The notes under the pieces are model-generated. The model made no database searches, had not been told where the DNA came from, and saw only the letters and a program-made list of their open reading frames with translations. A program made the translations under genes and the position numbers. A DNA stretch of 20,421 nt from a virus, in the IMG/VR virus record IMGVR_UViG_3300032326_001486, positions 1-20,421 of that record; one strand, 5' to 3'. Numbering within the stretch: the stretch's first letter is position 1; each line of letters begins with the position of its first letter. Below, in pieces: positions 1 through 18,173 of the stretch.

Positions 1-3000
1 ATGTATTCCAATAATCAGACGTTGCCAATCCTTCCGAGTATGATTTACGAATTGGCTCTGCACATGTCTGTCCACTTGAGTCTTGTACTTGTAGAGGCGC
101 TGATAAAATTTGTTCTACGTTAGTCCACTTACCAGCAATTGCTCCGCTACCACCTGTCCACTTCCACAAACGATTGTCTGACTGTTCTGTCGACAGTCTA
201 GCCTTTAAGTCTTTTGTGATGTTTGAATTTGCCTCCCCATACACCGCAACCTTATCGCGATCCGTGGGGTTTGCTATCTTTGCAAGCTTTGCATCCGCTA
301 CGGCCAAGTGATGATCACGAATATCTTTATGGACACGTAGGTCGTTCAGTCCATATGATGCAGCTTCCATGTAGGACGACTTTGCTCCAAGATTTTTAAG
401 TGCGTCCGCCACTTGTGGGTAGTAATCTCTACGTAAGCGTGCAACCTCTCGCATCATTTTTGCCATTTCAGACTTTGTAAGATTAGGTCCAAATAGAATC
501 TTTTCTTCAAACGTCTTTTTTAAATCGTCCGGCATAACATTTAACAATTTCATTCTGCCAATTGTTGTTACATTGCCCTTGTATTTAAACCCTTCGCGTT
601 CTTCAAGAGTATTTTGCTTATGTGCTAGATACGCAGCAGATTCAGTGTCAAATGCTTGCTTGCCAGTAAATTTAATCTCAGACAATTGCCAAATACCATA
701 AGCAGCATCCCATTCTGGTAAATTCATAAGATCAAAGTCTTTAGCTCCAAATAAATTACGGCTAGGAGTCATACCTTTAGCTTCTTCTACAGCTTCCTGT
801 GATGCTGGTAAAAATATCGCCATAGTATCACCGTCAAAGTCGGCGTTAAAGCCTTTACAAACCATGGGGTGAATTTGGATAGACTTATCCTCTGTAAGTG
901 TGGGGTAAAACGCCATAACACTATGTTTATGAAGCATGGGATCACGTTTCATTAAAACGGGTCTATTTTTAACGGCAAGATCGGTTGCATACTTAACGGT
1001 ATCGGAGGTTGCTTCATCACGATATTTCTTCATCGCTTGCGCGGGCGTATATCCCATACCAATAATTTCACGGATAATGAATGGGCGATAAATTGCCAAG
1101 GCCATTTTACGTGGCATACCGATTTGATCTAAAGTTAAATTGGGCTCAGGAATAATAACGGAACGTGCAGACAATTCAACGCGTCTACCAATTAGCTTGT
1201 CCTGGTAGAACCCTTCCTTACCTTGTGCCAACCCACCTGTTGTTTTTGGATTAGTAATATACTGTAGCAACGAAGATATTGGAGCACCTTTGTTATCCAT
1301 AGCACCCTTAATGTATGTCTCTTTTACGGAATTAAACAGAGCGTACTCCGCATCCATCCTTTTTTCTGGAAGAGTTTCGGCTGGTAAATCTTTTAGTTGC
1401 ATATTAAACATACCGACTTGGCGATACATTTGATTAATATCAGCTGATTTAACATCACCAACCGCATCAACTGCGTCTGAAATACCGATGGGGCGCATAA
1501 CAGGTGGTAGAATTGGCATATACTTCATTGTATAAGCGTCATATGCACTTAGATTGAGATTTGTAAGTACCTTGAGTAAACGTATTTTCTTAACACAGTT
1601 ATTTCGTTCAGTACCCTTTACTTTGTCAAGAAGTTTGATTTGCTTATCAAGCTCTTTGGCTGTGTCAATCTTTGCCAAAGCATTAACAATCGCCCCCATG
1701 CCTGTTCCCCCAGAGAACTGCATTTTACCTTGTGCGGTAGGCTCAAAGTTTTTTTGCATAATATCTAAAAGAATACATACAGGTTTCTCAAAGACGGGAT
1801 TAATTACACGTGAGTGTAAAGTTACTCTACCCCACTCTTTACTTAAAGTCTTACCGGTAGGGAAATCGAACAGTCCGCCCTTTTCTGGTTCGCCTGTTTT
1901 ACCTACGATAGCTCTACTTGGGTTCTCGATTTCATGTGGACAGCTTTTAAGCACATCCTTGTCTGTCATAGGAACTAACTGAAATTCGTCCGCATTTCTT
2001 GATGTGTTAATGCCTAGCGCAGTAAGGTGGGAGAAAAACTTTTTAGTAGCAAAGGTTGGTTGGGGCGCGGGTATTTGGTGCCCATTCATAAGCGCATCCC
2101 AATACTCATCAGAGTCGTACTCACCTTTAAACACATCACCTTGTTCGTAGGTAGAATGGTGTGTCTGCATTTCAAGAATATTTGCACGTGCGTTATGTGC
2201 AAGTAACCCATACATACCCAAGGCCCCCATAGCTTGACCACCGATACCCGCGCCCTTAACAGGCTGGTGATTAATATCATATACAGCGCCTTTAATGCCA
2301 GGTAAAGATCCGCCAGCACGAGCTGTAAACTTTTTCTCAACTTGGTGCTGTAACTTTTGGATATATTGTTTCCCAACAATTACACTACCGATAGACTTAC
2401 CTGTATCGGGGTCATGAAGTAATTCTTGATCACTAACGCCATGCGACTGCATTTCTTTCATTAATTCGTCTAGCCGGTCTTGACTATTTTTATCAAAGTT
2501 AGTAACAATGTAAGGTTTGCCCGTCTTTTCAGCAATTTTAGACGCGCCTAACTCCATCAACTGTCCAGGATTAGTTCTACCTGTCATACCAACGGGGTGT
2601 AAGGCAACTTCAAGATGAACTTGCTCCCCAGAGGCGTCTTTATAGAACGGCATCTCATGATCTTCTAAAATTTTAGTAACGATACCCTTATTACCATATC
2701 TACCAACAAGCTTATCGCCGATTGTCATTTTTTCTTGTGTGCGCACAAACACCGTAACTTTTTTACCCGTATTCACAATTCTAGATACAACACCAGGGGT
2801 TTCTTTTTCCCAACGAACTTCGGAAGCTTTCCAGTCTAGTGCGAAGGATGTTGACTTAGACATAGCTCTAAAGGTTGGATCGGGCACTTTTTTGGTTACG
2901 GCACAAATCAAGACATCATTCATCTCGACCTTTTCGCCTAACTTGATTACGCCATTTTCATCTAGCTTTTTAAATGATTCGGTCGATAGTCTTGAAGATT

Positions 3001-5125
3001 GTGGAGCGATTGTATCAAACAAATACCTAGAAATGATAACAGCGTTTGATTCTAAGTCGTTAAGTAGGCTTGGGGAAATTTTAGTACCAATTTGAACAGT
3101 TGCATCACGATCAAAAGAGTACATGTGCTCACTTTTAAGCTTTTCAGACGCAGAACGAGAAATAACTACGCCGTCTTCATAGTTGTACCCACGCATTGGT
3201 AAGTAACCAACACGTAAGTTTGTTCCTAGAGCCAAGGTACCATTCTTTGTAAAGTTGGAGTCAGCGACTAACTGACCCTCTTTTACTTTATCTCCTACCT
3301 TTACAATTGGGATATGTTGTAGAATACCGCCTACTGCATTTGTTTGGAAATTATTGTATAAATATACGATATGAACTTCTTTACCATCATTAATTTTTAC
3401 AAAGTCGTCTGTAACCTCTGTTACGACACCATTGACAGGCGAAAGCTCTGCGGATTTGCTCCCAACTGCCTTTTCCATTGTGTTGTCTGTATTGCCAACA
3501 CGTATTTGAATAAGAGGTTCTTCACGATTGACAAGACTCAAAGACTGCCCAGCCATCTTAGCTGCCATCATATTTCTGTTACCATTGTTATTGTTAACGA
3601 ATGGAATTAAGTTTGTAGCAATACCAAACTGTTGTTGCGCATTTACAATTACGTAGTCAACCTGAGAGAGATCGACCTTACCAGGTTTACCTCCTGGGAG
3701 AGAAACGCGTATTAATGGAACGCGAGCTTTACATTCTCCGTTTACAAACTCTACGTCTTCTGGAAAGGCTACAGTCGCTCTGTCAGCGGTTAAAGGATCT
3801 ACCTTTTCAAGCTGTTTAGTCTTCATGCTATAGAGCATGGCGTGTAGTCTATCGCCTTCTTTGGCAGTACCTGTCGCTAAAGGTAAAACTAAACCAGTGT
3901 TATCACTTTCACCCGTATCAAGAGGATCAAGAAATGCTAAGTGAGAACTGTGTACGCTAGTAGCACTACCCAATTGCATACCTGGTCCTGTACTGATACC
4001 GCCCATACCCTTAACAGTAGTAGTGGTTGCACCGGAGATCATAGCAACTGGATTAATTTGATCACCCTCAGATGAAAGCTGTGTTTCACCACCTTTACGA
4101 AAAAAGCCTAGCATATAAGGATCCATAATACCCGAAACAATCTTAGACGCCGAGTCTGAGTTGACACCCATTCTATTTTTAACTTTTTGTTGGATTTCCC
4201 TTGATTTTCTAGCTAAGTAGTCCTCAATTAAATCAGGCGTATCTAGAAACTTTTTATGACCAATATTATTATATGATGATTCAGTTTTCTCTCCTTTAGA
4301 TACTTGAATTAAAGCCTTTCCTGTATCAAGTAAAGCGTCTGGTGTTAGTGTTGCGTGGGGTCTACCCAATACATCTTGTGTAATACGCGTGTCTAGTGTG
4401 TGCTTTGCAAGCTCTTGGAAAATGATCTCGGCTGCAACCCTCTCGTTGGGAATAATTGCTTTATCCCCCGCAACTAGCTTGGCCTTACTAATTAAAGAAC
4501 TTACCATTGCAGCCGGTTTAATATTACGTTTAGCAGCGTCAACCATAGGTTGTCCCCAAACACTTGCAATCTGCTCATCTGTCTTACCAATACCTCTAAG
4601 TAATGCATATAAATCTAGTGTAGCAGATGAATCCTTACTACCAAGCTTAGGCTGTATTGTAATCATACGTTTGATTGGGTCAAAGACTAGGGGGATTTGG
4701 CCTTTACGCTCATTAGCGGCTACAGCTTGTATTTCGCCATTATCCGCAATACGCGTATAAATACCCGACATACGTCTAAACTGAGATGACACTTGATACT
4801 CTCTACCTTGAACCAAATAGCTTAATCGGGCGGTAACAACAGGAAGCTTACATATGTTTACTTTTCGTGACTCGTTGATAAGCTTGCCTGTTGCCTTCTC
4901 AAAGAGTTTGACCTTTACGGAAACGTCTTGTGCTAATGTACCCCCTTGGTCCCTTAGTTGGCGGTGCAACATATAATTAGAACTATTGGTCAAACCATTA
5001 AACTGCACCTCACTAACCTCTAGTTTTCTAGTTGTACTTTCAACATTAAAAATAGATGGAATAAGGGTAATTAGGCGTTGTTGAAGATCCTTGTGTCTCT
5101 TTTCATAATCCAAATGCTCAAGCAT
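1..5125 (-). CDS. Fused beta-beta' multisubunit-type RNA polymerase (C-terminus beyond window)
   Basis: DNA-dependent RNA polymerase in which both large catalytic subunits lie in one frame; 1708 codons are visible and the 3' end is off the left edge. The beta half shows a degenerate rifampicin-pocket region (355-400, starting DQINP), GYNYEDG (646-652, beta YNFED), GDKLVGRYGNKG (803-814, with the two active-site lysines) and HPVGMTGRTNPGQ. The beta' half starts near residue 1060 with GLFDF (1084-1088), then GRRVELSARSVI (about 1310-1322) and the Mg-binding loop NADFDGD (1427-1433). The last visible residues, EPIRKSYSEGLATSDY, match the stretch just before the beta' bridge helix. These motifs fall in one frame and I read no stop between them. 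The N-terminal beta' zinc ribbon is missing: GLFDF leads straight into the following conserved block with no CxC/CxxC. The start has GGAG 6 bases upstream. It differs from phiKZ-type phage polymerases, which are split into several polypeptides. The family call is secure; promoter specificity is unknown. Confidence 0.95.
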   Translation of the reverse strand, partial: MLEHLDYEKRHKDLQQRLITLIPSIFNVESTTRKLEVSEVQFNGLTNSSNYMLHRQLRDQGGTLAQDVSVKVKLFEKATGKLINESRKVNICKLPVVTARLSYLVQGREYQVSSQFRRMSGIYTRIADNGEIQAVAANERKGQIPLVFDPIKRMITIQPKLGSKDSSATLDLYALLRGIGKTDEQIASVWGQPMVDAAKRNIKPAAMVSSLISKAKLVAGDKAIIPNERVAAEIIFQELAKHTLDTRITQDVLGRPHATLTPDALLDTGKALIQVSKGEKTESSYNNIGHKKFLDTPDLIEDYLARKSREIQQKVKNRMGVNSDSASKIVSGIMDPYMLGFFRKGGETQLSSEGDQINPVAMISGATTTTVKGMGGISTGPGMQLGSATSVHSSHLAFLDPLDTGESDNTGLVLPLATGTAKEGDRLHAMLYSMKTKQLEKVDPLTADRATVAFPEDVEFVNGECKARVPLIRVSLPGGKPGKVDLSQVDYVIVNAQQQFGIATNLIPFVNNNNGNRNMMAAKMAGQSLSLVNREEPLIQIRVGNTDNTMEKAVGSKSAELSPVNGVVTEVTDDFVKINDGKEVHIVYLYNNFQTNAVGGILQHIPIVKVGDKVKEGQLVADSNFTKNGTLALGTNLRVGYLPMRGYNYEDGVVISRSASEKLKSEHMYSFDRDATVQIGTKISPSLLNDLESNAVIISRYLFDTIAPQSSRLSTESFKKLDENGVIKLGEKVEMNDVLICAVTKKVPDPTFRAMSKSTSFALDWKASEVRWEKETPGVVSRIVNTGKKVTVFVRTQEKMTIGDKLVGRYGNKGIVTKILEDHEMPFYKDASGEQVHLEVALHPVGMTGRTNPGQLMELGASKIAEKTGKPYIVTNFDKNSQDRLDELMKEMQSHGVSDQELLHDPDTGKSIGSVIVGKQYIQKLQHQVEKKFTARAGGSLPGIKGAVYDINHQPVKGAGIGGQAMGALGMYGLLAHNARANILEMQTHHSTYEQGDVFKGEYDSDEYWDALMNGHQIPAPQPTFATKKFFSHLTALGINTSRNADEFQLVPMTDKDVLKSCPHEIENPSRAIVGKTGEPEKGGLFDFPTGKTLSKEWGRVTLHSRVINPVFEKPVCILLDIMQKNFEPTAQGKMQFSGGTGMGAIVNALAKIDTAKELDKQIKLLDKVKGTERNNCVKKIRLLKVLTNLNLSAYDAYTMKYMPILPPVMRPIGISDAVDAVGDVKSADINQMYRQVGMFNMQLKDLPAETLPEKRMDAEYALFNSVKETYIKGAMDNKGAPISSLLQYITNPKTTGGLAQGKEGFYQDKLIGRRVELSARSVIIPEPNLTLDQIGMPRKMALAIYRPFIIREIIGMGYTPAQAMKKYRDEATSDTVKYATDLAVKNRPVLMKRDPMLHKHSVMAFYPTLTEDKSIQIHPMVCKGFNADFDGDTMAIFLPASQEAVEEAKGMTPSRNLFGAKDFDLMNLPEWDAAYGIWQLSEIKFTGKQAFDTESAAYLAHKQNTLEEREGFKYKGNVTTIGRMKLLNVMPDDLKKTFEEKILFGPNLTKSEMAKMMREVARLRRDYYPQVADALKNLGAKSSYMEAASYGLNDLRVHKDIRDHHLAVADAKLAKIANPTDRDKVAVYGEANSNITKDLKARLSTEQSDNRLWKWTGGSGAIAGKWTNVEQILSAPLQVQDSSGQTCAEPIRKSYSEGLATSDYWNT

Positions 5126-5181: not shown

Positions 5182-5265
5182 ATGACAACTAAATCGGCAC
5201 CCAAAAACGATTTACCAAAGTGGCGTTGGGGTGATTTCGGTGGACCTACACAACCAAAAAAGTAG
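5182..5265 (+). CDS. 27-residue basic, Trp-containing peptide of unknown function
   Basis: A very short reading frame with an unusually strong ribosome site: AAGGAGGTG lies 4 bases before the ATG. The peptide begins MTTKSAPKND, has a central PKWRWGDFGG block and ends in PKK. It has two tryptophans, no cysteine and no membrane segment, and is net basic. It is the first gene on the plus strand diverging from the RNA polymerase and has promoter-like site 1 just upstream. I recognise no family. Strong ribosome site plus own promoter-like motif make translation likely despite the length. Small phage proteins in such positions sometimes bind host or phage transcription factors, but nothing in the sequence shows that here. 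Confidence 0.6.
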   Translation: MTTKSAPKNDLPKWRWGDFGGPTQPKK

Positions 5266-5389: not shown

Positions 5390-5563
5390 ATGAATGAGCG
5401 TGAGCAATGGTTATTATTTTGGTCTATGATCGGCGGATTCTTTGGATGGCTGACATGGGAACTAAAAAATGAAAAGGATAAATGCGATGAAGAGTACGAA
5501 AACTATATACGTAGGTGCGTACGACAAAAACAAGAGCATGACTACTACGATAGCCAGCGGTGA
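5390..5563 (+). CDS. 57-residue single-pass membrane protein, function unknown
   Basis: The ribosome site AAGGAG stands 6 bases before ATG. The product starts MNEREQ, then has one hydrophobic, aromatic-rich segment (residues 7-23, WLLFWSMIGGFFGWLTW) that should span the membrane once. A highly charged tail (residues 24-57) follows, with two cysteines (32 and 43). No lipobox or cleavable signal peptide is apparent. The size and shape would fit a small inner-membrane phage protein, such as a superinfection, lysis-related or host-modifying peptide, but no family is recognised and no lysis genes lie nearby. It is the first gene after promoter-like site 2 and overlaps the next gene by 26 bases, suggesting coupled translation. 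Confidence 0.65.
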   Translation: MNEREQWLLFWSMIGGFFGWLTWELKNEKDKCDEEYENYIRRCVRQKQEHDYYDSQR

Positions 5564-5801
5564 AAAACCACCGTCTGAATACTGCCCTATTATCAATAGC
5601 ACCTGTAGCTTGATTACATGTTCAAAGTGTAAAGCACTAAATATGTTTACAAATGATGCCGTTTGGGTATGCGTAGGATGCTACGACAGGTATATGAACG
5701 GAATGTATTCTATACTACCCTTTCATTCAACTGGAAAATGTCATGTTTGTGGATGCGCAAGCGTGGCTCTAATTCTTGTGGAGATTAAAAATGAAATGTA
5801 A
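5538..5801 (+). CDS. Small cysteine-rich zinc-ribbon-like protein (87 residues)
   Basis: Nine cysteines lie in 87 residues: C16, C23, C28 and C31 (CSKC), C45 and C48 (CVGC), then C68, C71 and C73 (CHVCGC). This arrangement of repeated CxxC knuckles suggests two zinc sites of the ribbon or treble-clef kind. The ATG at 5538 was chosen because it leaves only a 26-base overlap with the membrane-protein gene. Two ATGs further upstream in frame (5469 and 5484) would extend the product by 23 or 18 residues, but through sequence that already codes in another frame; AAGGA before 5484 keeps that start possible. The 3' end overlaps the next gene by 11 bases. Function unknown; metal binding is an inference from the spacing. 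Confidence 0.6.
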   Translation: MTTTIASGEKPPSEYCPIINSTCSLITCSKCKALNMFTNDAVWVCVGCYDRYMNGMYSILPFHSTGKCHVCGCASVALILVEIKNEM

Positions 5802-6447
5802 AGATCGGAAAGAGAAAGATATTGTTGGCGTATGTCCCCACTGTATGGATGACACAGACAATATTTACAATTATATTAAAGATGGTGAAAAGTGTTATAG
5901 AGTCGAGTTTGGCCACACTCTCAGATCAAAAGATGGCGGACATGTTATTTTCGATGCTATGACAGAGCACTGCTACTTTGAGTATATTTCTGCGGGTAAT
6001 TACGAGTTTGATGAGTTGGAGGAAGACCCATTCCAATATGACGATACATACGCTCTAATGTTTCTTCATGTGCATTGCTTTGAAACAATCAAGTGGGGAA
6101 AATATGAAAAACAGAAAGAACCAAGTAATTGCAGCTGTTGTGATACGAAAATCATTGGAATGCACAACATTGCTGTTGGCGAAACCCCTGATATTATGGC
6201 GCGTGTTACTCTAGGCTATGTGGATCTTGATGACAAGAATGAGCCCATATTTACAGAAACAGTTGAAGCGGATCTTACACCTGATAGGTATTTGTGTTTA
6301 CAATGTATGTATGAAGCATTTTCATGCCCATCTACAATTATGGAGGCTCAAGAACAGATGGATCAATTGCATAAGCAACGGTCAGATGAGCACGAAAAAG
6401 ATAAAGATGACTATATAGATCCGGAGGATAGGTGGCAAAATCAATAG
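5791..6447 (+). CDS. Acidic cysteine-rich protein of unknown function (218 residues)
   Basis: The ATG start follows GGAG by 7 bases; an in-frame TTG at 5776 would add five residues but has no better site. CxxC or CxC groups lie at 15/18 (CPHC), 114/116/117 (CSCC) and 169/172 (CLQC), with further cysteines and histidines at H60/C61 and H95/C96, so one or two zinc sites are likely. The middle (71-85) and the last 40 residues are strongly acidic, and the tail after residue 185 looks helical and charged. It is the last gene of the plus-strand group and follows another CxxC-rich gene with an 11-base overlap, so the two may work together. Its stop codon overlaps the stop of the converging portal gene. 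I do not recognise a family. Confidence 0.75.
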   Translation: MKCKDRKEKDIVGVCPHCMDDTDNIYNYIKDGEKCYRVEFGHTLRSKDGGHVIFDAMTEHCYFEYISAGNYEFDELEEDPFQYDDTYALMFLHVHCFETIKWGKYEKQKEPSNCSCCDTKIIGMHNIAVGETPDIMARVTLGYVDLDDKNEPIFTETVEADLTPDRYLCLQCMYEAFSCPSTIMEAQEQMDQLHKQRSDEHEKDKDDYIDPEDRWQNQ

Positions 6448-8495
6448 CCAATTGGATTTTGACGTCTTGACGGCTTCATTGTTGGCATAGGGGATTGGAG
6501 AGGATTTAGGGGATTAGCTTGACTACCCTTTCTAGAGGCTAGGATATTATTTACCATCTGAAATAGCGGAGGATTTGATATCGCCATTTGGTTTAATATT
6601 TGATTTTGTCTATCTGCTGGTACGCCTGTGATATAAGATGCTGCTCTTTTAGCTACATAACTAATGTCCATATTATTAGAACCGGCTTGTGCACCAGATC
6701 GCTCAGTACCAAACCATGGTGGGATACCCGTTTGTGGTGTTCTTGATCCGTTCCTAGCGTAGGCTGTTGCACCTTCTGGGAAACCAGGAGCTACCTGATC
6801 GCCTGTCATCGCACCTTCAGGTAAAGCATTATTAGATGCTACTGACTGACTTATCATTGGTACTTGTTTATTTTTAGCTTTTTCCTCTGCCTCAGCCTGC
6901 ATACGTTCTTGAATCTCTTGCTGTTCTTGCTGTAGATCTAGCTGACCGATTGCTTGAGATCGTTGATTTTGCATTTGATAACGAGTGTTAATCGCCATAA
7001 TCTCACCTTGCATATGAGCTTGTTGGGCTTGCATACGCTTTTGGAGCTCAAGCATTGATCCACGCTCCTCGTCCATCTTTCTACGCTCAAGCTCTGGGTC
7101 AAATCCTAAGTCCTCTAACAAGGTTCTATCAGCTAGCTTTTGTGCTTGAACAAGTTGGAAATAAAGCATTGTACGTTGTAGATCATCCGCCATTTTAAAT
7201 GGTCTAAACTCGCCGTCTATTTCAGGGTAATTCATAAACTGTGCAACGCGTCTAAGAATAAAATTAAATACTAGATCTTGTTGGTCTTCAATGTAAGAAA
7301 TAAATTTATTATGTAGTTGGAACATTGTTAGATTAGTACCGCTATATTGTACGCCCCCAAATACAAACTCTGGTGGAACACCCATACCAGCAATTACGTG
7401 CTCCATCCAAACACGGTATTCTTGGTGAAGAATTAAGGAACGTCCCTCACCGCCTATTTGCTGAAACCCTAAAGGTAAAGGCATAATCGGAATACGATTT
7501 GGATCTATTTTCCACTGACTAAGTTGTTTTTCAACCTCAGTTTTCCACTCACCAAGATTTAACATGGAGTATGGATCTGCCGTTGGAGAATTTGATGACG
7601 GGAATACAATACGCATTGGCACAATATGCTCTTGTGCAATTGCCTCTTGTGATCTACGTAGAATACCAAGATAATGTAAATCCTTCATTACGGGAAGTAT
7701 TAAAGGCGTACCATAACCCATACTCTTTTGTGCAAGAGTTGGGCGTTTAAAATGAAATACATTTTCTTTACTTAGTATTAAGCGCTTTGAACGCTGAACA
7801 GCTTTAATAAATACATCGGGTAAATCCTCTATACGTGCTTTACGCCCCATACGAATTTCATTCTGTAGCTCAGCGGGGATATCATAAAAATATTCCGTAT
7901 CGCCTGTGATATCGTCATACTTAACATCAATACGTTCAGGATCCCATCTCATAAGACGGATACCCCTCAAACTACGCATTGATTGGTCATTTACTTCCGC
8001 AAAACCAACATGAGAGCACTTATTACATGTCAATTGGTATTTCATACTGACCCAGCGGTATTTAGTACTTATATCCTTTACATAGTGCTGATTCTTACAC
8101 TGCTGACAGACTAAGAACTTCTTAAATGGAAATAATACACTTACATAGCAATTACCATAAGTATAATAATCCAGTCCTACCTCAACGCGAAATGCTTTCA
8201 AATTTAGGTGCTTTACCACCTCCTCGTATTTTTTACGAAGAATATCATTATCTGTTTTAAATATAATTGGAGTAATTGGGTATTCAGCCATTTTAGTAAT
8301 AGCGGAATTAACAGCAGGGTTTGTTAGAAAATAAAACCTACACCAATGAAACATATTCTTAAAGGATGTAGGTAAGTACGCTTGACCTTGATCAAAAAAT
8401 GGGTGCGGGTATTTAGGGGCTGATGTTGCTCTACCCTCTGCTCCCGCAGAGTTTAGCATAGACCCCTTACCGCCTAAACTAAACCTATAACTCAT
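6441..8495 (-). CDS. Phage portal protein with inserted zinc ribbon
   Basis: Portal proteins form the dodecameric ring at one capsid vertex through which DNA is packaged and ejected. The 684-residue product has portal-like features: an N-terminal FYFLTNPAVNSAITKMAEY helix, a long alpha/beta core with the MRWDPERI, HFKRPT and SMGYGTPLI segments (about 180-270), and GMGVPPEFVFGG (about 374-385) followed by a long helix with ISYIEDQQDLVFNFILRR, typical of the stem/crown end of the family. Two knuckles, CQQC (130-133) and CNKC (157-160), make an internal zinc ribbon unusual for a portal. Residues about 500-570 are Gln/Met-rich and probably coiled coil, followed by a Pro/Asn-rich tail. The start has GGAG 8 bases upstream and shares one base with the preceding stop (TAATG). 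It is the last gene of a four-gene minus-strand cassette. Confidence 0.88.
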   Translation of the reverse strand: MSYRFSLGGKGSMLNSAGAEGRATSAPKYPHPFFDQGQAYLPTSFKNMFHWCRFYFLTNPAVNSAITKMAEYPITPIIFKTDNDILRKKYEEVVKHLNLKAFRVEVGLDYYTYGNCYVSVLFPFKKFLVCQQCKNQHYVKDISTKYRWVSMKYQLTCNKCSHVGFAEVNDQSMRSLRGIRLMRWDPERIDVKYDDITGDTEYFYDIPAELQNEIRMGRKARIEDLPDVFIKAVQRSKRLILSKENVFHFKRPTLAQKSMGYGTPLILPVMKDLHYLGILRRSQEAIAQEHIVPMRIVFPSSNSPTADPYSMLNLGEWKTEVEKQLSQWKIDPNRIPIMPLPLGFQQIGGEGRSLILHQEYRVWMEHVIAGMGVPPEFVFGGVQYSGTNLTMFQLHNKFISYIEDQQDLVFNFILRRVAQFMNYPEIDGEFRPFKMADDLQRTMLYFQLVQAQKLADRTLLEDLGFDPELERRKMDEERGSMLELQKRMQAQQAHMQGEIMAINTRYQMQNQRSQAIGQLDLQQEQQEIQERMQAEAEEKAKNKQVPMISQSVASNNALPEGAMTGDQVAPGFPEGATAYARNGSRTPQTGIPPWFGTERSGAQAGSNNMDISYVAKRAASYITGVPADRQNQILNQMAISNPPLFQMVNNILASRKGSQANPLNPLQSPMPTMKPSRRQNPIGY

Positions 8496-9936: not shown

Positions 9937-10700
9937 TGTTGCTCTCTACCCATTTTTGGACTTGCTTGTCCTTTAGTAAGTCTTTCCAACGCTTGTGTTG
10001 GTGATTCGTATAGTTGTTCTTTTTCAAGCGCACCATCATAATCATATAAAGATCTACCACGAGATTGTAAGTTGTCAATTACATTGTCATTAACAAGACG
10101 AGTGATTACCGTTTTTTGGGGATCAGGTAATGAACTAAAAATTGTCCAAGGATTTCTAATTAATTCCGCTACTAAATCTATATGAAAAGTTTGTTCAAGA
10201 ATAGATTTAGCAGAAGGGTTTTTAACCCACTCTTCTAACTTTCTTTGTGAAAGGGTATCAGAAGGCCCTTCCCAAGTTTCATTACCAACAACATCGGCAA
10301 CCTTCTCAAAAACAGTGTGAAATGGGTCTGGCATTCTACCGTAGCATTTGTCGAGCTGGTAAGCTTTGTCTAAATTTTCAATCAAGCTTACGACTCTATA
10401 AGGATCAACATCTTCACGACTAGCAATTTTCACAATTTCATCGACTGCTGCATTTGTTCTACCACCAGATAGATAATTACGCATTTGCATACCTGGAGCT
10501 ATACTGTTACGTGGAACACCTACATAGCTAGCAACCTTTTCAGTTGGCTCTAAACCATTTTGTAGCATTACATTTGCTAAACCTTGAGCGTATTCGATTC
10601 TGTCAGTCAAACTAAAGTTTTTTTCGTACATATCAAAATATGCGCATGCAGTTTTAATTTGTGCGGATGAGTTAACGGGGTACTTACCTAGTAATTTCAT
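9933..10700 (-). CDS. Unknown 255-residue protein, first gene of the portal cassette
   Basis: I chose the ATG at 10700 because it follows GGAGG by 6 bases. An in-frame ATG at 10712 lies across that ribosome site and would add only four residues (MEDS). The product is soluble and mostly helical, with no membrane segment, two lone cysteines and no metal knuckle. A segment around 130-175 includes PDPFHTVFEKVADVVG and KLEEWVKNPSAKSILEQ, and the tail is polar (KGQASPKMGREQQ). No family is recognised. It is the first gene of the minus-strand cassette, directly behind the divergent promoter region, and its stop overlaps the following ATG by four bases. Confidence 0.75.
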   Translation of the reverse strand: MKLLGKYPVNSSAQIKTACAYFDMYEKNFSLTDRIEYAQGLANVMLQNGLEPTEKVASYVGVPRNSIAPGMQMRNYLSGGRTNAAVDEIVKIASREDVDPYRVVSLIENLDKAYQLDKCYGRMPDPFHTVFEKVADVVGNETWEGPSDTLSQRKLEEWVKNPSAKSILEQTFHIDLVAELIRNPWTIFSSLPDPQKTVITRLVNDNVIDNLQSRGRSLYDYDGALEKEQLYESPTQALERLTKGQASPKMGREQQ

Positions 10701-10736
10701 TGAATCCTCCATAGGTTATCTTAATGCCTATATAAA

Positions 10737-10745
10737 TGTGATAAT
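10737..10745 (+). promoter_or_regulatory. Candidate promoter motif TGTGATAAT (site 3)
   Basis: Identical to site 2 over nine bases. It lies in the divergent gap between the portal cassette and the replication operon, ending 38 bases before the ATG at 10784. TATAAC follows five bases downstream, comparable to TATAC after site 4. It would drive the plus-strand replication genes. Confidence 0.5.
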
Positions 10746-10747
10746 TC

Positions 10748-10756
10748 TTTATAACA
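10748..10756 (-). promoter_or_regulatory. Candidate minus-strand extended -10, TGTTATAAA
   Basis: On the minus strand the gap reads TG-T-TATAAA, a good bacterial extended -10, 47 bases upstream of the ATG at 10700. It is the only strong promoter-like element for the portal cassette and differs from the GTGATAA motif on the other strand, so the two divergent units could be read by different polymerases or at different times. No clear -35 was identified. Confidence 0.35.
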
Positions 10757-10783
10757 CAAGAAAGGAGTAGTTATAACCAAAAA

Positions 10784-11248
10784 ATGACAAGTTACTACAA
10801 TAACACGAATAAACCGCACTGTTTTGGTAATGATGATTACTATAACGAGACATCTCGTCAGTGTTCGGGGTGTAATTACCGACAATCCTGTGCAATCGCG
10901 CTTCAAGAGAAAGGAAAACAACAAGAAGTGAGTGAAGTAAATTATTATCGTCCAAGGACTGCAACCAATAGTACATCAACAAGCAGTACTACATCGACTA
11001 CATCTAGTAGCACACCATCGGCATCCTATACAACAAACTATACAGCCAGCAATAATAACGCATCCAACAGACCTGTTGTTATGCGCGGTTCTACTGATGA
11101 CTTTAATTTTGATAAACCTTTGGGTAGACAATTTGCCACATATTTGGCATATGATATTGCACAAGTAAGTACTGAACGCCTACACTCATTCATTGTAGCA
11201 AGTAAGGAAAACTACAGAACATCATTAAAAAAACCGGAGAATAAATGA
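10784..11248 (+). CDS. Cysteine-cluster protein with Ser/Thr linker, function unknown
   Basis: 154 residues in three parts. Residues 1-45 are Tyr/Asn-rich and carry four cysteines, C13-x13-C27-x2-C30-x5-C36 (CFG, then CSGCNYRQSC), spaced for one zinc or Fe-S site. Residues 59-95 are a Ser/Thr/Asn low-complexity linker. Residues 100-154 form a helical, probably folded tail (KPLGRQFATYLAYDIAQVS). It is first in the replication operon, so an early regulatory or DNA-binding role is possible but not shown. The only ribosome-like site (GGAG, 10764-10767) sits 16 bases before the ATG, which is long; no in-frame start lies between them. The gene overlaps the next by ATGA. Confidence 0.75.
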   Translation: MTSYYNNTNKPHCFGNDDYYNETSRQCSGCNYRQSCAIALQEKGKQQEVSEVNYYRPRTATNSTSTSSTTSTTSSSTPSASYTTNYTASNNNASNRPVVMRGSTDDFNFDKPLGRQFATYLAYDIAQVSTERLHSFIVASKENYRTSLKKPENK

Positions 11249-11628
11249 AGCTTAAAGACTTCTTAAGCGCAAAACGAGCTGCATCAAAGTTTCAAACATT
11301 TGTAGATATTTCTGCATATGCAAAAACACGCGGTTATGATATAAGTTCAGAGTCACTAAGACTATGTGAAAAGGGCGACAGAATTCCAAACTCGGATACG
11401 AGAAAGATTCTTGTTGAGATTTATAAGCTAACACCTGATGAGTCGGATACGCTCAATTGGTTATGCGCCTCTGAGGTTCTTGCTAGGGATTTCCCAGATT
11501 ACATAGCAGTAAGCAAACAAAAGACAAATACCTTTTCGGAGGCGTTAGCACAAAGCCTTAGGTATTTACCAGACGACAACAAGTCAAAGCTAAAAGACAC
11601 ACCATGGATCAAAACACAGCTTACATAA
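11245..11628 (+). CDS. XRE/Cro-like helix-turn-helix protein
   Basis: 127 residues. Residues 1-73 resemble the helix-turn-helix of the XRE/Cro/CI family: FLSAKRAA as helix 1, a VDISAYAKTRGYDISSESL stretch as the DNA-recognition pair, then CEKGDRIPNSDTRKILVEI, matching the family's E-x-G-x-R-x-P-S signature, and KLTPDESDTLNWL as the closing helix. The C-terminal half is helical and short, without an S24 peptidase or other sensor domain. It probably binds DNA and may tune early or replication-gene expression. The start is good (GGAG 6 bases before) and overlaps the upstream stop by four bases. The similarity is by pattern only, so family membership is probable, not certain. Confidence 0.6.
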   Translation: MKLKDFLSAKRAASKFQTFVDISAYAKTRGYDISSESLRLCEKGDRIPNSDTRKILVEIYKLTPDESDTLNWLCASEVLARDFPDYIAVSKQKTNTFSEALAQSLRYLPDDNKSKLKDTPWIKTQLT

Positions 11629-12956
11629 GCAATTATTTGTTCTTACCAAGAAAATTTGTCAGCGTTGCTCCAATACGCTATTCGTTAGCCATAGGCGATA
11701 TGCCATCAGACTCATTACTAACAGATACTCATATAAGAGTCCCGCGACACTTTTTGGATGTCAAAAACACAGAAGTACCTTATTCGGTAGAAGAGATTAC
11801 ACATAATGCTCAATCGATTGATGTAGAGGCAAAGACTTCTCTTAGACCTGGGCAAACTAACGCCTTACAAGCAATGATCGATAATAAGAACGGAATACTA
11901 AATCTCGGATGCGGGCATGGTAAAACCGTTGTGTCATTACATTACCTAGCACACATAAAGACTAAAACAATTATTGTTGTTAATCGTGCTAACCTAATAG
12001 ATCAATGGCGCGAAGAGATTGATAAGCACTTAGATATTAAGCCCAAGAAAATAGGAATTGTACAAGGTAAAAAGTTTGAATGGGAAGATAAGGATATTGT
12101 TCTTGCTACTATTCAAACTCTTGTCAAGCGTATTGACGGTAACGAAGAGTTTTTTAAGTCATTTGGTTTAGTAATATTTGACGAATGTCATCATTTGAGC
12201 GCGCCCGTATTTAAACAAATATGCCCCCTATTTCATGGCCTACGGCATGGGCTCTCTGCAACACCAAAACGTGAAGATGGTTATCAAAATGCTTTTATCT
12301 ATCATCTCGGCCCTGTGTATTATAGCGACATAAGTCAAGAGATCATACCTAAGAGTTATTTTGTAAAGACAGATATTAAAGATGATGACGTTGCAGACGA
12401 AGCTTATGATGTAGCGGGGGAAATACATCACCGTAAATTATGTGCATGGCTTGGTTCATTACAAAATAGAAATGAAATTATTTTCAATATTATAGATCGA
12501 CTGCTGAATAATGGCCATAAGATTTTGTGTTTATCTCATAGTGTAGAGCATGTTCAAGAGATGCATAAGCTACGCTTAGATTCTGGGATTGCCTGTGGTG
12601 ATGTAGACCCCGAGAAAAGACGAGAAGAGATAGAAAATAACCCACTAAGCTTTGGGACAATTGACGTAGCGGCAGAAGCGTTGAATGTCCCATCCCTTAG
12701 TGCTCTAATCGTTATGACCCCTTTTGGCGCAAAAACACAAGGAAATATCCTACAACAATCGTTGGGTAGAATACAGAGACGTTGTCTAGGTAAAAATGAT
12801 GCAATTGCTGTTTTTATTGAGGACGACATAGGTATGTGTTCTTCACTGACACGACAGATTAAAAAAAGACTGAGAGAATGGGATTATCCCTATGAAGAAA
12901 CAAATTCAAGCAAACTTGTCCAATCCCTATCAAAGGGAACACTTGCGTTTGATTAA
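11604..12956 (+). CDS. SF2 DNA helicase (UvsW/XPB-like)
   Basis: ATP-dependent helicase or translocase of superfamily 2, as used by phages for branch migration, recombination or origin processing. Motifs in order are RPGQ (81-84) as Q-motif, Walker A GCGHGKT (102-108), IIVVNRANLIDQW as motif Ia, DECHH (193-197) as Walker B, SATP (218-221) as motif III, KILCLSHS (307-313) as motif IV, IDVAAEALNVPSLSALI as motif V and QSLGRIQRR (385-393) as motif VI. At 450 residues it is slightly shorter than T4 UvsW and lacks extra nuclease domains. The start overlaps the previous gene by 25 bases and has only a weak ribosome site; a later ATG at about 11701 is possible, but the early YLFLPRKFV segment looks like real protein. 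Confidence 0.9.
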   Translation: MDQNTAYISNYLFLPRKFVSVAPIRYSLAIGDMPSDSLLTDTHIRVPRHFLDVKNTEVPYSVEEITHNAQSIDVEAKTSLRPGQTNALQAMIDNKNGILNLGCGHGKTVVSLHYLAHIKTKTIIVVNRANLIDQWREEIDKHLDIKPKKIGIVQGKKFEWEDKDIVLATIQTLVKRIDGNEEFFKSFGLVIFDECHHLSAPVFKQICPLFHGLRHGLSATPKREDGYQNAFIYHLGPVYYSDISQEIIPKSYFVKTDIKDDDVADEAYDVAGEIHHRKLCAWLGSLQNRNEIIFNIIDRLLNNGHKILCLSHSVEHVQEMHKLRLDSGIACGDVDPEKRREEIENNPLSFGTIDVAAEALNVPSLSALIVMTPFGAKTQGNILQQSLGRIQRRCLGKNDAIAVFIEDDIGMCSSLTRQIKKRLREWDYPYEETNSSKLVQSLSKGTLAFD

Positions 12957-13647
12957 CAGCGTTGCTAGTGCAAGCAATACCCCATCTGACTGTAAAAAGT
13001 GTGAGCTGCACTGTACTCGCAAAAATTTAATCTATGGCACGGGCAATCCTAAATCACGTTTACTAATTGTAAAGGATATGCCAACAAGCGAAGAAAACAG
13101 AGTAGGAACTCACGACACACCTGATCTTGATCTTCTTGTGCGAGTCTTTTATGAGATTGTTGTAAAGGAAGAAAAGCTATATGGTCGTGTAAATCAAGAT
13201 GAAGCAAGACAAGTGTTACTTGATTCATGCTTTATTACAGATTCCGTAGCTTGTCGTTCAGAAATACAATCTGGGGAGAACGCTGGAGAAGGGCGTGATC
13301 CTAAGCAATCTCAAGTCAAAGCTTGTAGAGATAGACTACAAGAAACTATATATGAAGTTGACCCTTTAATTACACTAGCGTGTGGTAAGTTTGCCGTCAC
13401 ATCCCTATTAAAAAGAAACAAAGACTTGCCTGCTAAGACTGGTAAAGCGGATTCGCTTTTCACATACACAGTCCCTGGTAGAATGGTTGAAGAAGTAAGA
13501 TATAGCGGAATCTACACATATGATTGGAAACACGCTGAGCGTATAGGCGACTATGATGACCCAAACGGTGCAATCGCAAGCTTTTGTAATGCGATTAGAA
13601 CTACTTGGAGAATTTACAGTAAAATAACAGGAGAAAAAGATGACTAA
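12892..13647 (+). CDS. Uracil-DNA glycosylase-superfamily protein with Fe-S-type cysteines
   Basis: 251 residues in the pattern of family 4/5 iron-sulfur uracil-DNA glycosylases: a cysteine pair DCKKCELHC (34, 37, 41), then NLIYGTGNPKSRLLIVKDMP, a CFITDSVACRSE segment (113-124) equivalent to the N-x-V/C-R strand, C145, and ITLACGKFAVTSLL (160-173) equivalent to the family's 'lG..A...l'. C34, C37, C121 and C145 could hold a 4Fe-4S cluster. The first catalytic motif (GEAPG in active enzymes) is replaced by KDMPTSEE, and no HPS-like C-terminal motif is visible, so base excision may be lost or altered. The start overlaps the helicase gene by 65 bases and has a weak ribosome site; a TTG at 12943 is an alternative. 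The next gene overlaps by 8 bases. Confidence 0.7.
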   Translation: MKKQIQANLSNPYQREHLRLINSVASASNTPSDCKKCELHCTRKNLIYGTGNPKSRLLIVKDMPTSEENRVGTHDTPDLDLLVRVFYEIVVKEEKLYGRVNQDEARQVLLDSCFITDSVACRSEIQSGENAGEGRDPKQSQVKACRDRLQETIYEVDPLITLACGKFAVTSLLKRNKDLPAKTGKADSLFTYTVPGRMVEEVRYSGIYTYDWKHAERIGDYDDPNGAIASFCNAIRTTWRIYSKITGEKDD

Positions 13648-14137
13648 AGTAGAAGAACTTAAGTCTAAGATTGACAATATTCACTTTTTGTTAAGTGGCG
13701 GTATCCTAAAAGATTTCTTAAGCGAAGAAGCATTTGAAGAGGCACTACCACGCTTTCAAGAAGGTTTATATGAACTAACATTTCTAAATGATCAACTCAA
13801 GGCTGAACTAGAAGCCGAGAAGACAAAATTTAGACGTGAAGCTTACGAACAATTCCAACAAGATCTAGCACTTGGTCGTGATAAATCTGATGCAATCAAG
13901 AGCGGAAACCTTGTAGCAACTGCTCGCTATACAAAGGAAATGCCATACTCTATTCCAGAGGTTCACTCAATCTTTGAGCGCGAAGGTTTAACAGCACCTG
14001 CTTGTAAAACAACAATCGATGTCAAAGCACTAGATTCCAAGCAAAAGAAACTCTACAAGAGCCTTGAAAAAATCACAGGCGTAACTGTAGTTGTTAAGGA
14101 TATTAGTGGCGGAGATACAGAAGAAGCTGACGAATAA
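13640..14137 (+). CDS. Unknown 165-residue protein with coiled-coil N-terminal half
   Basis: AGGAG stands 7 bases before the ATG. Residues 1-90 are almost all helical and highly charged, with heptad-like FLNDQLKAELEAEKTKF around 48-64, suggesting a coiled coil or oligomer. A short basic segment (94-110) links to a compact C-terminal part that includes one cysteine and KQKKLYKSLEKITGVTVVVKD. The tail is acidic (GGDTEEADE). It sits among recombination and replication genes, so an accessory role such as a helicase loader or mediator is conceivable, but there is no motif to support it. Confidence 0.75.
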   Translation: MTKVEELKSKIDNIHFLLSGGILKDFLSEEAFEEALPRFQEGLYELTFLNDQLKAELEAEKTKFRREAYEQFQQDLALGRDKSDAIKSGNLVATARYTKEMPYSIPEVHSIFEREGLTAPACKTTIDVKALDSKQKKLYKSLEKITGVTVVVKDISGGDTEEADE

Positions 14138-14145
14138 GTGATAAT
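14138..14145 (+). promoter_or_regulatory. Candidate promoter motif GTGATAAT (site 4)
   Basis: Lies directly after the stop codon of the preceding gene and ends 32 bases before the ATG at 14178. The wider string GTGATAATCAAGTATA resembles site 3 in having TATA at the same distance. It lacks the T before GTG found in the other three copies. It would restart transcription in front of the helicase-primase-polymerase genes. Confidence 0.45.
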
Positions 14146-14177
14146 CAAGTATACGGATGCGTATATAGGAGATAGCT

Positions 14178-14513
14178 ATGGAACATGAACAACATGATTA
14201 CTCAATCACTGCAAGTATTGTACTTAAGCATGGTGATAAACAATATATCTATTCAAAACCTAGGAGTTTATTTATGAAACACTTAATTGGAGATGGCTTA
14301 GCAAAGCTTACAATGTCATCCGAACTAAATGACAAGACCTATGGAGATGGCGTCTCTTGTATGGTAAGTGTAACAGTTACTGTCGATCAATCAGAAAATG
14401 CTATTGCGGACGCTGCACAGATCCTACGTGTAATCACTGGTGAAGAAGCTCGTACTGCTCTAAGTGAATTTCGTGATATTTATCGCCAAATGAAAGCTGA
14501 TAGCAAGAAGTGA
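14178..14513 (+). CDS. Unknown 111-residue beta-rich protein
   Basis: TAGGAGATAGCT gives a good ribosome site before the ATG. The first 75 residues alternate as in beta strands (SITASIVLKHG, QYIYSKPR, VSCMVSVTVTVDQ), followed by a C-terminal helix (TGEEARTALSEFRDIYRQMKAD). It starts a new transcription unit after promoter-like site 4 and is coupled to the next gene by a four-base GTGA overlap. The strand-then-helix layout and the helix ending in S-x-FRD resemble the next, smaller protein, so the pair may be diverged duplicates or partners. No known family recognised. Confidence 0.72.
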   Translation: MEHEQHDYSITASIVLKHGDKQYIYSKPRSLFMKHLIGDGLAKLTMSSELNDKTYGDGVSCMVSVTVTVDQSENAIADAAQILRVITGEEARTALSEFRDIYRQMKADSKK

Positions 14514-14749
14514 AAAACGCAATCACAGTCGAGGGGTTAAAGTTAAAAATTGTTTCTACTACATTCAAAGCGGATACGCTAACAGTTGAAGTAGTAATTG
14601 CAAACAATAATGCGGTGAGTACGCCTGCAACCTTTACAATCCCACTCAATAACGAAAAAGCTAAGGCAATCGCAAGTTTCCGTGATCTCTTAGAGTCACA
14701 AATTTTGGAGTATTTAGATGCGCGACCTCGAAGTCAAACTAATATCTAA
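14510..14749 (+). CDS. Unknown 79-residue protein, possible paralogue of its neighbour
   Basis: The start is GTG, overlapping the upstream TGA stop by four bases. No strong ribosome site is present, so it probably depends on translation of the upstream gene. It has a beta-strand-rich body (LKLKIVSTTFKADTLTVEVVIA) and a closing helix (NEKAKAIASFRDLLESQILEYL), the same order as in the previous protein. Its 3' end overlaps the DnaB-like helicase gene by 32 bases. Function is unknown; position suggests a role linked to the replicative helicase. Confidence 0.65.
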   Translation: MKNAITVEGLKLKIVSTTFKADTLTVEVVIANNNAVSTPATFTIPLNNEKAKAIASFRDLLESQILEYLDARPRSQTNI

Positions 14750-16190
14750 GATTATGCTGGACGGTAGTCCTCGTAAAGCAAAATCTTTGGGTGTTGGGCT
14801 TGAGTATTTTACAAATCCCAAGTGCGCTCTTGCGTGGAAAAAACTACTTGAATATGGCTCTATGCCGGGCCAAATGGGTGAGGTTCCAACAAAGCGACAG
14901 CTAACAAAGCATACAGGCCTTGAACTATTAGACTACGTAGATGAGTCTATGATGGACTTGGTTAAAGAGTTGCGTGATGACTATTCAACTAGAACATTGC
15001 GTAAATGCGTGATCGAAGTTGATGATTTATTACGTGCTTATGGACCAGAACTAGCGCTTGAGCATTTAAACTCTATTGCAAAAGAGCTTAACAGTGGCTT
15101 AATCCCTGACAGTAATCGTTTAGATTTAGCTGATGCTATTCCTCGTTTCAAAGAGTCATATGAGCTCATGCAAAAAGGTAATGGTATCAATGGTATTCCA
15201 TTTCCATGGGCACCTATGAATGATGGTACTGGTGGTATGGCTCCCGGCACTTTTAATGTTATTTATGGTCCTTCAAAGTCGGGTAAAACATGGATGGGGC
15301 TTGAAGTTGGCGTCGTTCACCCATTTGAACGTGCAAATGCAAGAACACTTGTTGTCAGTAATGAAATGCCAAATGAGCAAATCTATAGGCGTGTTTTGGC
15401 TAGAATGTGTCGCCTAGATTATGGCCAAGTTGTTCGTGCTGCACTAGATGAAGATGGTCGTGCTCAAATGTATGAACACCTAAACTCTATTCATCAAGAA
15501 CAAATAGATGAGCTAAAACAAGGATTAAATCACCAACGCTATCGTGCTATACGTTGTGTTAAACCCTCGTCCGCCTTAGGTGGTGGGTGTAATGCAATTC
15601 GTAGTGAGATAGAGGCTTTCCAACCTGATCTTGTATTCATTGACGGTGTTTACCTAATGACTGATGATCGTACTAAAACACGAGATATGTCTTGGAGAAC
15701 TATCGCAAATATTACACAAGATCTCAAAATGCTTGCAACGCGCTATAACCTTCCTATCATTGGCACAACACAGTCTAATAGAGAAGGTGTTAAACGTAAA
15801 CCAGGCGAGGATATGGACAGCTACGACGACGTTGGGTTTGGCTTGGGCGCTATTCAAGATGCGGATATGGTTATGCGTGTCCAAAAGATTGAGACAAATC
15901 AAGGGGAAAAGGTACTCGTTACACTTCCCGCTATGCGTGAGTCAAAGGTAGACAGCTTTACTGTAAACTTTGTTCCCGTAGTAGATTTCGGCCTACACCA
16001 AATTAACCTAACTAGAGATCAAGTTAAAACGCTTATGAACCTTGCGGACAACGGATCCGTTGCGCAAGTGTCTAACAATAACATGCAACCCGAACAAAAA
16101 GAATACCGAAGGAGACGACAACCACAAGCAACACAGCAAGCAGCGCCCTCGTTGCCAACATTACCCGGAACTACAGACGGAGAAATCTAA
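14718..16190 (+). CDS. DnaB-type replicative DNA helicase
   Basis: Hexameric helicase unwinding the fork. The N-terminal 140 residues resemble the DnaB N-terminal helical domain. A RecA-like core follows: PGTFNVIYGPSKSGKT with Walker A at 184-191, SNEMP (214-218, equivalent to DnaB SLEMS), Walker B DLVFIDG (304-310), GTTQSNR (349-355, sensor region) and DADMVMRVQK (about 381-390), matching DnaB's DADVV segment. The last 50 residues are Gln/Pro-rich and likely disordered. At 490 residues it is close to bacterial DnaB in size and carries no primase domain; the primase is the next gene, starting right after this stop. The ATG has GGAG 7 bases upstream and overlaps the preceding gene by 32 bases. 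Confidence 0.93.
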   Translation: MRDLEVKLISKIMLDGSPRKAKSLGVGLEYFTNPKCALAWKKLLEYGSMPGQMGEVPTKRQLTKHTGLELLDYVDESMMDLVKELRDDYSTRTLRKCVIEVDDLLRAYGPELALEHLNSIAKELNSGLIPDSNRLDLADAIPRFKESYELMQKGNGINGIPFPWAPMNDGTGGMAPGTFNVIYGPSKSGKTWMGLEVGVVHPFERANARTLVVSNEMPNEQIYRRVLARMCRLDYGQVVRAALDEDGRAQMYEHLNSIHQEQIDELKQGLNHQRYRAIRCVKPSSALGGGCNAIRSEIEAFQPDLVFIDGVYLMTDDRTKTRDMSWRTIANITQDLKMLATRYNLPIIGTTQSNREGVKRKPGEDMDSYDDVGFGLGAIQDADMVMRVQKIETNQGEKVLVTLPAMRESKVDSFTVNFVPVVDFGLHQINLTRDQVKTLMNLADNGSVAQVSNNNMQPEQKEYRRRRQPQATQQAAPSLPTLPGTTDGEI

Positions 16191-17099
16191 ATGGATATAC
16201 GGGAGATTGTTACCGAATACTTTGGGCAGTATAAGGCGTCTACAAACAATAATGTTTTTATTAAATGCCCAAGCCCCGATCATAATGATAGTAATCCATC
16301 GTGCCACCTAGACTTAGAAAAGAAGGTTTTTCTTTGCTTTTCTTGTGGGGCAAAAGGCACACTTGAAACCGCATTACGTTGGAAAAAGGCTCCTCCTGAT
16401 CTAGTGTCACTATTCTCCGAATATAAACCAGTGTACAAGCACCCAACAAGAGTTGAAGAACATCTTTTGGATGAAATGATTTTATATGCGTGGGACTTTG
16501 AGCCACAGCCTTGGATTGATGAAGGCTTTGATCCCCGTGTCTTACATGCACATGATATTGGCTTTGACATTCATAACCAACGTATTACTATTCCCATATA
16601 CAACAAGAATGGACAGCTTGTAGCTATATCTGCTCGTGCGGTAGGTAGTGAACAACCACGCTACAAAATATACAAGTCAGAGCTCATGGATTATTGTCCC
16701 GTTGGGTATAATCCTAAAATACACAATTACTTGTGGCGCTTCAATCGTGTACCACCTGATGCACAATACCTTGTAATTGTTGAAGGTTTTAAAGCCGCTC
16801 TTAAACTTGTACAAAATGGTGAACATAATGTTGTAGCGCTTATGGGAAAAATGTTATCAGCTGAGCAAGAAGCTGAAATAGTTTCTAATCGACAACGTGT
16901 TTATCTAATGCTAGACAATGACGAGGCGGGTCGCAAAGGCCAGCTAGAAATTGCGATAAGGTTAAGTAAACGAGGCACGGATACGTGGATAGTTGATTAT
17001 CATACTCGTCAACCCGACACACTCACACAATTCGAGCTCCAAGAGGCTCTTTCTAAATCACTTCCGCTATTTCAGTGGAGAAGGAAAGGTGAACCATGA
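16191..17099 (+). CDS. DnaG-like DNA primase (zinc finger plus Toprim)
   Basis: Makes RNA primers for lagging-strand synthesis. A zinc-binding domain lies at 26-52 (CPSPDH, then CFSC at 49-52, with an additional C38), as in the CHC2 fold of DnaG and T7 gp4. A linker with the LDEMILYAWDF and ITIPIYNKNGQLVAISARAV segments resembles the RNA-polymerase-like part of DnaG. The Toprim motifs follow: VIVEGFKAAL with E198, and LMLDNDEAGRKG with D242 and D244. At 302 residues it is about half of bacterial DnaG and has no C-terminal helicase-binding domain. GGAG precedes the ATG, which follows the helicase stop immediately; separate helicase and primase genes contrast with the single fused T7 gene. Confidence 0.93.
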   Translation: MDIREIVTEYFGQYKASTNNNVFIKCPSPDHNDSNPSCHLDLEKKVFLCFSCGAKGTLETALRWKKAPPDLVSLFSEYKPVYKHPTRVEEHLLDEMILYAWDFEPQPWIDEGFDPRVLHAHDIGFDIHNQRITIPIYNKNGQLVAISARAVGSEQPRYKIYKSELMDYCPVGYNPKIHNYLWRFNRVPPDAQYLVIVEGFKAALKLVQNGEHNVVALMGKMLSAEQEAEIVSNRQRVYLMLDNDEAGRKGQLEIAIRLSKRGTDTWIVDYHTRQPDTLTQFELQEALSKSLPLFQWRRKGEP

Positions 17100-18163: not shown

Positions 18164-18173
18164 TTATTAAGCG

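Follow-up and report, generated by a model that had tools for sequence, protein, structure and literature searches.

The question raised by this locus is whether a bacterial virus encodes beta and beta', the two large subunits of a bacterial-type RNA polymerase, as one polypeptide. In nearly all bacteria beta and beta' are separate proteins. Helicobacter and Wolbachia have fused rpoBC, with beta and beta' in one cellular chain. Fused two-barrel polymerases have been reported for crAss-like phages, phage P23-45, YonO of SPbeta and cytoplasmic plasmids, all of them strongly diverged, and the jumbo-phage enzymes are split. A bacterial-like beta-beta' fusion in phages was not described in the literature searched (few subscription papers, no preprints), an absence that remains unproven. 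The DNA analysed, referred to as the window, is the whole 20,421-base stretch of the IMG/VR virus record IMGVR_UViG_3300032326_001486, a metagenome fragment.

On the minus strand a single stop-free frame of 1729 codons extends from position 5188 to the contig end at base 2. The frame is open from a TTG at 5188; the ATG at 5125, preceded by GGAG five bases upstream, is the more likely start. Pfam searches with the window protein identified RpoB domain 6 (Rpb2_6, E=2e-52) and RpoC domain 2 (Rpb1_2, E=1.5e-30), thus, with both values obtained in one protein, the match to RpoB and RpoC is not due to chance. Rpb1_1 was matched as well. According to the alignment, K826 and K834 of the window protein are the counterparts of E. 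coli beta K1065 and K1073. The chain is truncated ahead of the bridge helix and the trigger loop. The features of the gene are:

2..5125, minus strand: single-chain beta-beta' RNA polymerase gene, start ATG 5125, 3' end cut by the contig end
5131..5134, minus strand: GGAG, ribosome-binding-like site five bases before the ATG
2252..3385, minus strand: beta catalytic double-psi barrel, Pfam RNA_pol_Rpb2_6, residues 602-979, containing GYNYEDG and GDKLVGRYGNKG
3193-3170, minus strand: RGYNYEDG at residue 666, in the polymerase frame
2719-2684, minus strand: GDKLVGRYGNKG at residue 824, in the polymerase frame
1949..2020, minus strand: beta/beta' junction ALGINTSRNADEFQLVPMTDKDVL, residues 1057-1080, predicted ordered beta hairpin
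1310..1627, minus strand: beta' N-terminal clamp region, Rpb1_1, residues 1188-1293, the preceding stretch without Zn1 ribbon
1189-1154, minus strand: GRRVELSARSVI at residue 1334, in the polymerase frame
770..973, minus strand: beta' catalytic double-psi barrel, Rpb1_2, residues 1406-1473, with NADFDGD
847-827, minus strand: NADFDGD at residue 1448, in the polymerase frame
26..55, minus strand: PIRKSYSEGL, the segment immediately preceding the bridge helix, where the contig ends

RpoB features give way to RpoC features across some 10-15 residues: the beta end ALGIN (E. coli SLGIN) is followed by the beta' start PMTDKDVL (E. coli ASPDMI), and the junction proper was placed at residues 1057-1073 (window 2020 to about 1970). 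The junction of the window gene shows no ribosome site paired with a start codon, and GC3 is even across it. The AlphaFold model of window residues 560-1729, comprising both halves, had a pLDDT of 89.7 and a pTM of 0.83; the junction was predicted as an ordered hairpin with block pLDDT values of 84-93. The initial annotation, made from the sequence alone, had claimed that beta and beta' motifs share one reading frame without a stop or a new ribosome site at the junction, which it estimated at residues 1013-1084. These claims held: all four quoted motifs lie in the 1729-codon frame, and the estimate was narrowed to the interval given above.

The window protein alone as query revealed no relatives, these were found only with alignments. 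Among 401 candidate stretches in IMG/VR, 335 were relatives, and the top 80 of them were retrieved. A complete single ORF of 2010-2639 aa, covering the segments tested between the beta N-part and the beta' C-part, was present in 73 inspected loci, a few of them from duplicate contigs and two from MAG contigs; these complete chains have bridge helix, trigger loop and Zn2, and Zn1 is missing. Several truncated relatives contain the same junction within one ORF. The nearest relatives (L005, L109, L110) are 51-54 % identical to the window protein, and their chains contain what it lacks: the bridge helix, the trigger loop and the Zn2 cysteines. An assembly artefact, a chimeric contig joining two genes, finds no support beyond the window being a metagenome fragment. 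It is all but excluded: isolate genomes and many contigs of independent origin have the same junction within one ORF, and the independent contigs refute an assembly chimera. The fusion is widespread in a group of tailed bacterial viruses. The annotated phage collection held no record with a full single chain; the best named records were cut forms, Salmonella phage Arash gp206 (1525 aa) and Vibrio phage D69 (1527 aa), with beta and the beta' N-part in one chain and the beta' C-part on a separate gene.

Several relatives exhibit peculiarities of their own. In L007 and L015 (ORF 9992-17911) the catalytic DFDGD is directly followed by an intein, about 485 aa long, that contains a LAGLIDADG domain; this intein is missing from L006, a close relative. 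L127 (ORF 9977-17386) has a LAGLIDADG insert in the trigger-loop half of its polymerase chain, 2469 aa in total. The portal proteins of L124 (4159-9063) and L114 (5650-9015) are enlarged by intein or homing-endonuclease inserts. Vibrio phage D181 (L004) has group I introns at 1667-1874 and 5464-5744, beside or inside the portal and polymerase genes, and their splicing would yield a D69-like chain. In the polymerase genes of L180, L181 and L183 in-frame TGA codons were observed, several at sites where nearly all homologs have tryptophan; thus, these phages probably read TGA as Trp. L029 and L030 carry a phage-type fused polymerase on contigs binned as Bacillus and Deltaproteobacteria MAGs. L029 also has a portal gene, hence phage DNA in the bins is likely.

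In the alignment of 25 phage chains, beta K1065, K1073 and R1106 as well as beta' R352, R425, D460, D462 and D464 (E. coli numbering) are identical in every chain, and the trigger-loop H936 is kept in all 24 that have letters there. The four cysteines of the Zn1 ribbon are deleted in 25 of 25 phage chains and present in 11 of 11 bacteria. In the rifampicin pocket all 25 have H526 replaced and S531 changed to T, therefore insensitivity to rifampicin is predicted. The AlphaFold model of the L005 beta' part (pLDDT 85.6) had a bacterial beta' as best solved-structure match (E=1.9e-60) and a TM of 0.84 to Clostridium; the best sequence matches in the PDB were bacterial beta' too. None of the matches inspected in a viral structure library spans both halves, the two best covering 757-788 of 1170 columns. 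The chain is a bacterial-type two-barrel polymerase with RpoB and RpoC domains and catalytic residues kept; its activity is inferred. A dead or decoy chain that interferes with host transcription without synthesizing RNA has to be considered, since activity data are lacking and the Arash-type chains have AADYDGD where the others have NADFDGD. We regard it as very unlikely: the catalytic aspartates and lysines are all kept in the 25 chains, and once the active-site intein of L007 is spliced out, the DFDGD motif would be intact.

A tree of 80 rows placed the phage chains apart from the bacteria and the MAG-derived cellular fused rpoBC within them, and a mixture-model tree of 41 rows agreed (phages supported with 95). 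Stretches of yeast RPB2 and human RPB1, taken from PDB alignments, were combined into a composite outgroup; archaea, Helicobacter and Wolbachia were left out. Within these limits the phage enzymes group in a clade of their own, outside the bacteria. A recent capture of a cellular fused rpoBC, of the Helicobacter, Wolbachia or Omnitrophota kind, could be proposed because such genes exist, including the MAGs L040, L078, L095 and L106. However, the cellular fused genes lie inside and the phage genes outside the bacteria, a constraint joining both was rejected (AU p=0.007, in the tree without Helicobacter and Wolbachia), and Zn1 is missing from the phage chains but kept in bacteria, so that a capture is all but ruled out. 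Each of the four MAG genes, from Omnitrophota, Caldisericota and an unnamed lineage, encodes beta and beta' in one ORF, the lengths being 2508-2691 aa. In two candidate-phylum MAGs rpoC is split into several ORFs (L068, 4612-11258; L067, 10232-16358). A scan for phages with separate subunits revealed only four loci. Because the 41-row tree left an open fork among L029, the separate-subunit phages YerA41/Carin-5 and the main clade, the order of the fusion and the split from separate-subunit phages is unresolved.

The Arash-type phages have the chain cut after the beta' barrel, and a sister group (L011, L012, L014, L016-L021, L024-L026) has a further cut inside the beta' N-part. Both form one clade (support 100), and the beta/beta' border stays joined in every cut form examined. 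The simplest reading, an inference from sequence alone, is a fused ancestor that was cut later, with the Arash-type forms as secondary.

Upstream of the polymerase gene the window contains:

6441..8495, minus strand: portal protein gene, upstream of the polymerase and co-directional
5469..5801, plus strand: small Cys-rich protein between portal and polymerase, kept in several relatives

A portal gene upstream on the same strand was present in all 88 loci in which a portal was found, the distance being about 0.9 kb in the median and 9 kb at most; in L110, genes for terminase and head protease lie downstream of the polymerase. Elsewhere in the window, a uracil-DNA glycosylase-like gene (12892-13647) adjoins a replication module at 14718-20201 (SF2 helicase, DnaB, primase, PolA); the order of glycosylase, helicase and DnaB is kept in close relatives. 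The SF2 helicase was considered as the Arash helicase Gp217 and is not the same helicase. Partner genes were sought in 32 records, which may be fragments, many exceeding 140 kb. Each had exactly one Rpb2_6 match. Profile searches detected neither alpha genes (0 of 32; 13 of 14 control genomes matched) nor omega genes (0 of 32; 14 of 14 controls). Sigma region 2 was found in 9 of the 32 and sigma region 4 above the cut-off in 8; sigma domains above the cut-offs were absent from 20 of 26 fused-phage records. Sigma-70-like promoters around the window gene were at chance level. The initial annotation had interpreted the gene as a natural fusion in a phage, which would form a distinct branch of the family and could assemble without alpha. 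The fusion held, full-length in the close relatives, and so did the distinct branch; assembly without alpha is consistent with the lack of alpha and omega genes, the use of host alpha is not excluded. As refutation it had named a stop or frameshift between the halves or a recent capture from cellular fused rpoBC, and neither was observed. Two corrections are necessary: the 335 relatives show that the gene is no single oddity, and existing database records of cultured phages contain this joined junction, under no annotation other than 'subunit beta' or hypothetical.

The Arash virion proteome bears on the function. In this relative, a member of the cut branch at about 30 % identity, the fused Gp206 ranks first with 3516 spectra and 128 unique peptides, followed by Gp4, Gp229, the major capsid protein (1333 spectra) and Gp216 (1210 spectra), which is the beta' C-part; the helicase Gp217 (1148 spectra) and the sigma factor Gp10 (467 spectra) were also detected (PMC10585845). 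The proteome from a sucrose gradient comprises 116 proteins, among them likely carry-over enzymes, and the authors allow abundance as explanation of detection (PMC10585845). A carry-over of proteins abundant in the lysate is not excluded. They label Gp206 'subunit beta', and the fusion is unremarked in the sections bearing on it (PMC10585845). Together with the position among head genes, the proteome favours a packaged and injected polymerase. Alternatively, the same single-chain enzyme may remain unpackaged and be synthesized only once infection has begun, serving as a non-virion polymerase for middle or late genes. Only one polymerase copy per record, a position among head genes that could simply reflect late expression, and the carry-over allowed by the Arash authors support this alternative. 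Against it, more spectra were obtained for the fused Arash chain than for the major capsid protein, the beta' C-part and a sigma factor were detected along with the chain, and the polymerase lies downstream of the portal in all loci where a portal was found; we consider it unlikely.

In the preferred reading, the packaged polymerase, the whole catalytic core would be one chain of about 2,100 residues, with beta, a short ordered linker and beta' without Zn1. The two barrels would fold against each other within one polypeptide, and the core should therefore assemble without alpha and omega. Encoded among the head genes in the order portal, polymerase, terminase, the chain would be packaged in the virion, injected with the DNA and transcribe early phage genes, with a sigma-like factor of the phage or of the host selecting the promoters. 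Later cuts of the chain, always within beta' and never at the old beta/beta' border, would have arisen in the branch to which Arash belongs. The fusion, the predicted fold, the lineage, the gene order, the lack of alpha and omega genes and the intact catalytic residues in relatives are shown. That the enzyme is active and independent of alpha, that the window's own phage packages it, and which promoter factor it uses are inferences, made without any experiment on the enzyme. Packaging is supported by one relative, Arash, and by gene position, the early role is an inference, and host alpha might still bind. Taken as a whole, the likely interpretation is a bacterial-type core enzyme made of a single chain without alpha, which the virion probably carries for early transcription. 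For a bolder version, a large uncharacterised lineage with a self-contained alpha- and omega-free chain that is packaged and injected, its ancestor already fused and the Arash-type cuts secondary, the arguments are balanced.

If true, nature would here provide a minimal model of the universal transcription enzyme, in which a single polypeptide does without assembly factors and still aligns residue by residue to bacterial RpoB and RpoC. Two questions would become accessible to experiment: the purpose of alpha and omega, and the relationship between phage and cellular polymerases. The chain, with its predicted rifampicin insensitivity, is a possible single-gene transcription tool, and a common but unannotated phage lineage is linked to culturable members.

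Among known systems, Arash (Gp206 with Gp216) and Vibrio phage D69 belong to the same lineage, with the same junction, the portal upstream and, for Arash, the chain detected in virions; they differ in the separate gene for bridge helix and trigger loop and are annotated as 'subunit beta' (Arash) or hypothetical (D69). The mReC group resembles the window lineage by bacterial-like beta and beta' in tailed phages that branch apart from cellular life (Weinheimer & Aylward 2020, PMC7481178). However, mReC was reported with separate beta and beta' subunits and a Gp23-type capsid (PMC7481178). The T4-type capsid protein Gp23 (PF07068) was found in none of the 32 fused-chain records, yet above the cut-off in 5 of 6 separate-subunit phages tested, thus these are not the capsid lineage reported for mReC. 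The capsid type argues against an identity with mReC, for which the exact contigs (97 published) were not compared; some of them could be members unrecognised as fused. The virion and non-virion polymerases of phiKZ and AR9 are likewise alpha-free phage two-barrel enzymes with one form packaged, but consist of four to five chains with two enzymes per phage, whereas the window lineage has one chain and one enzyme. Cellular fused rpoBC differ in that the MAG examples fall inside the bacterial tree. The crAss-like gp66, P23-45 gp64/gp96 and YonO also combine both barrels in one chain, and the crAss-like and P23-45 gp96 forms are packaged. No member of this clade was among the sequence and fold matches inspected, the best of which were bacterial beta'. 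These enzymes are highly diverged with limited similarity to RpoB and RpoC, whereas the window lineage has retained the Pfam RpoB and RpoC domains intact.
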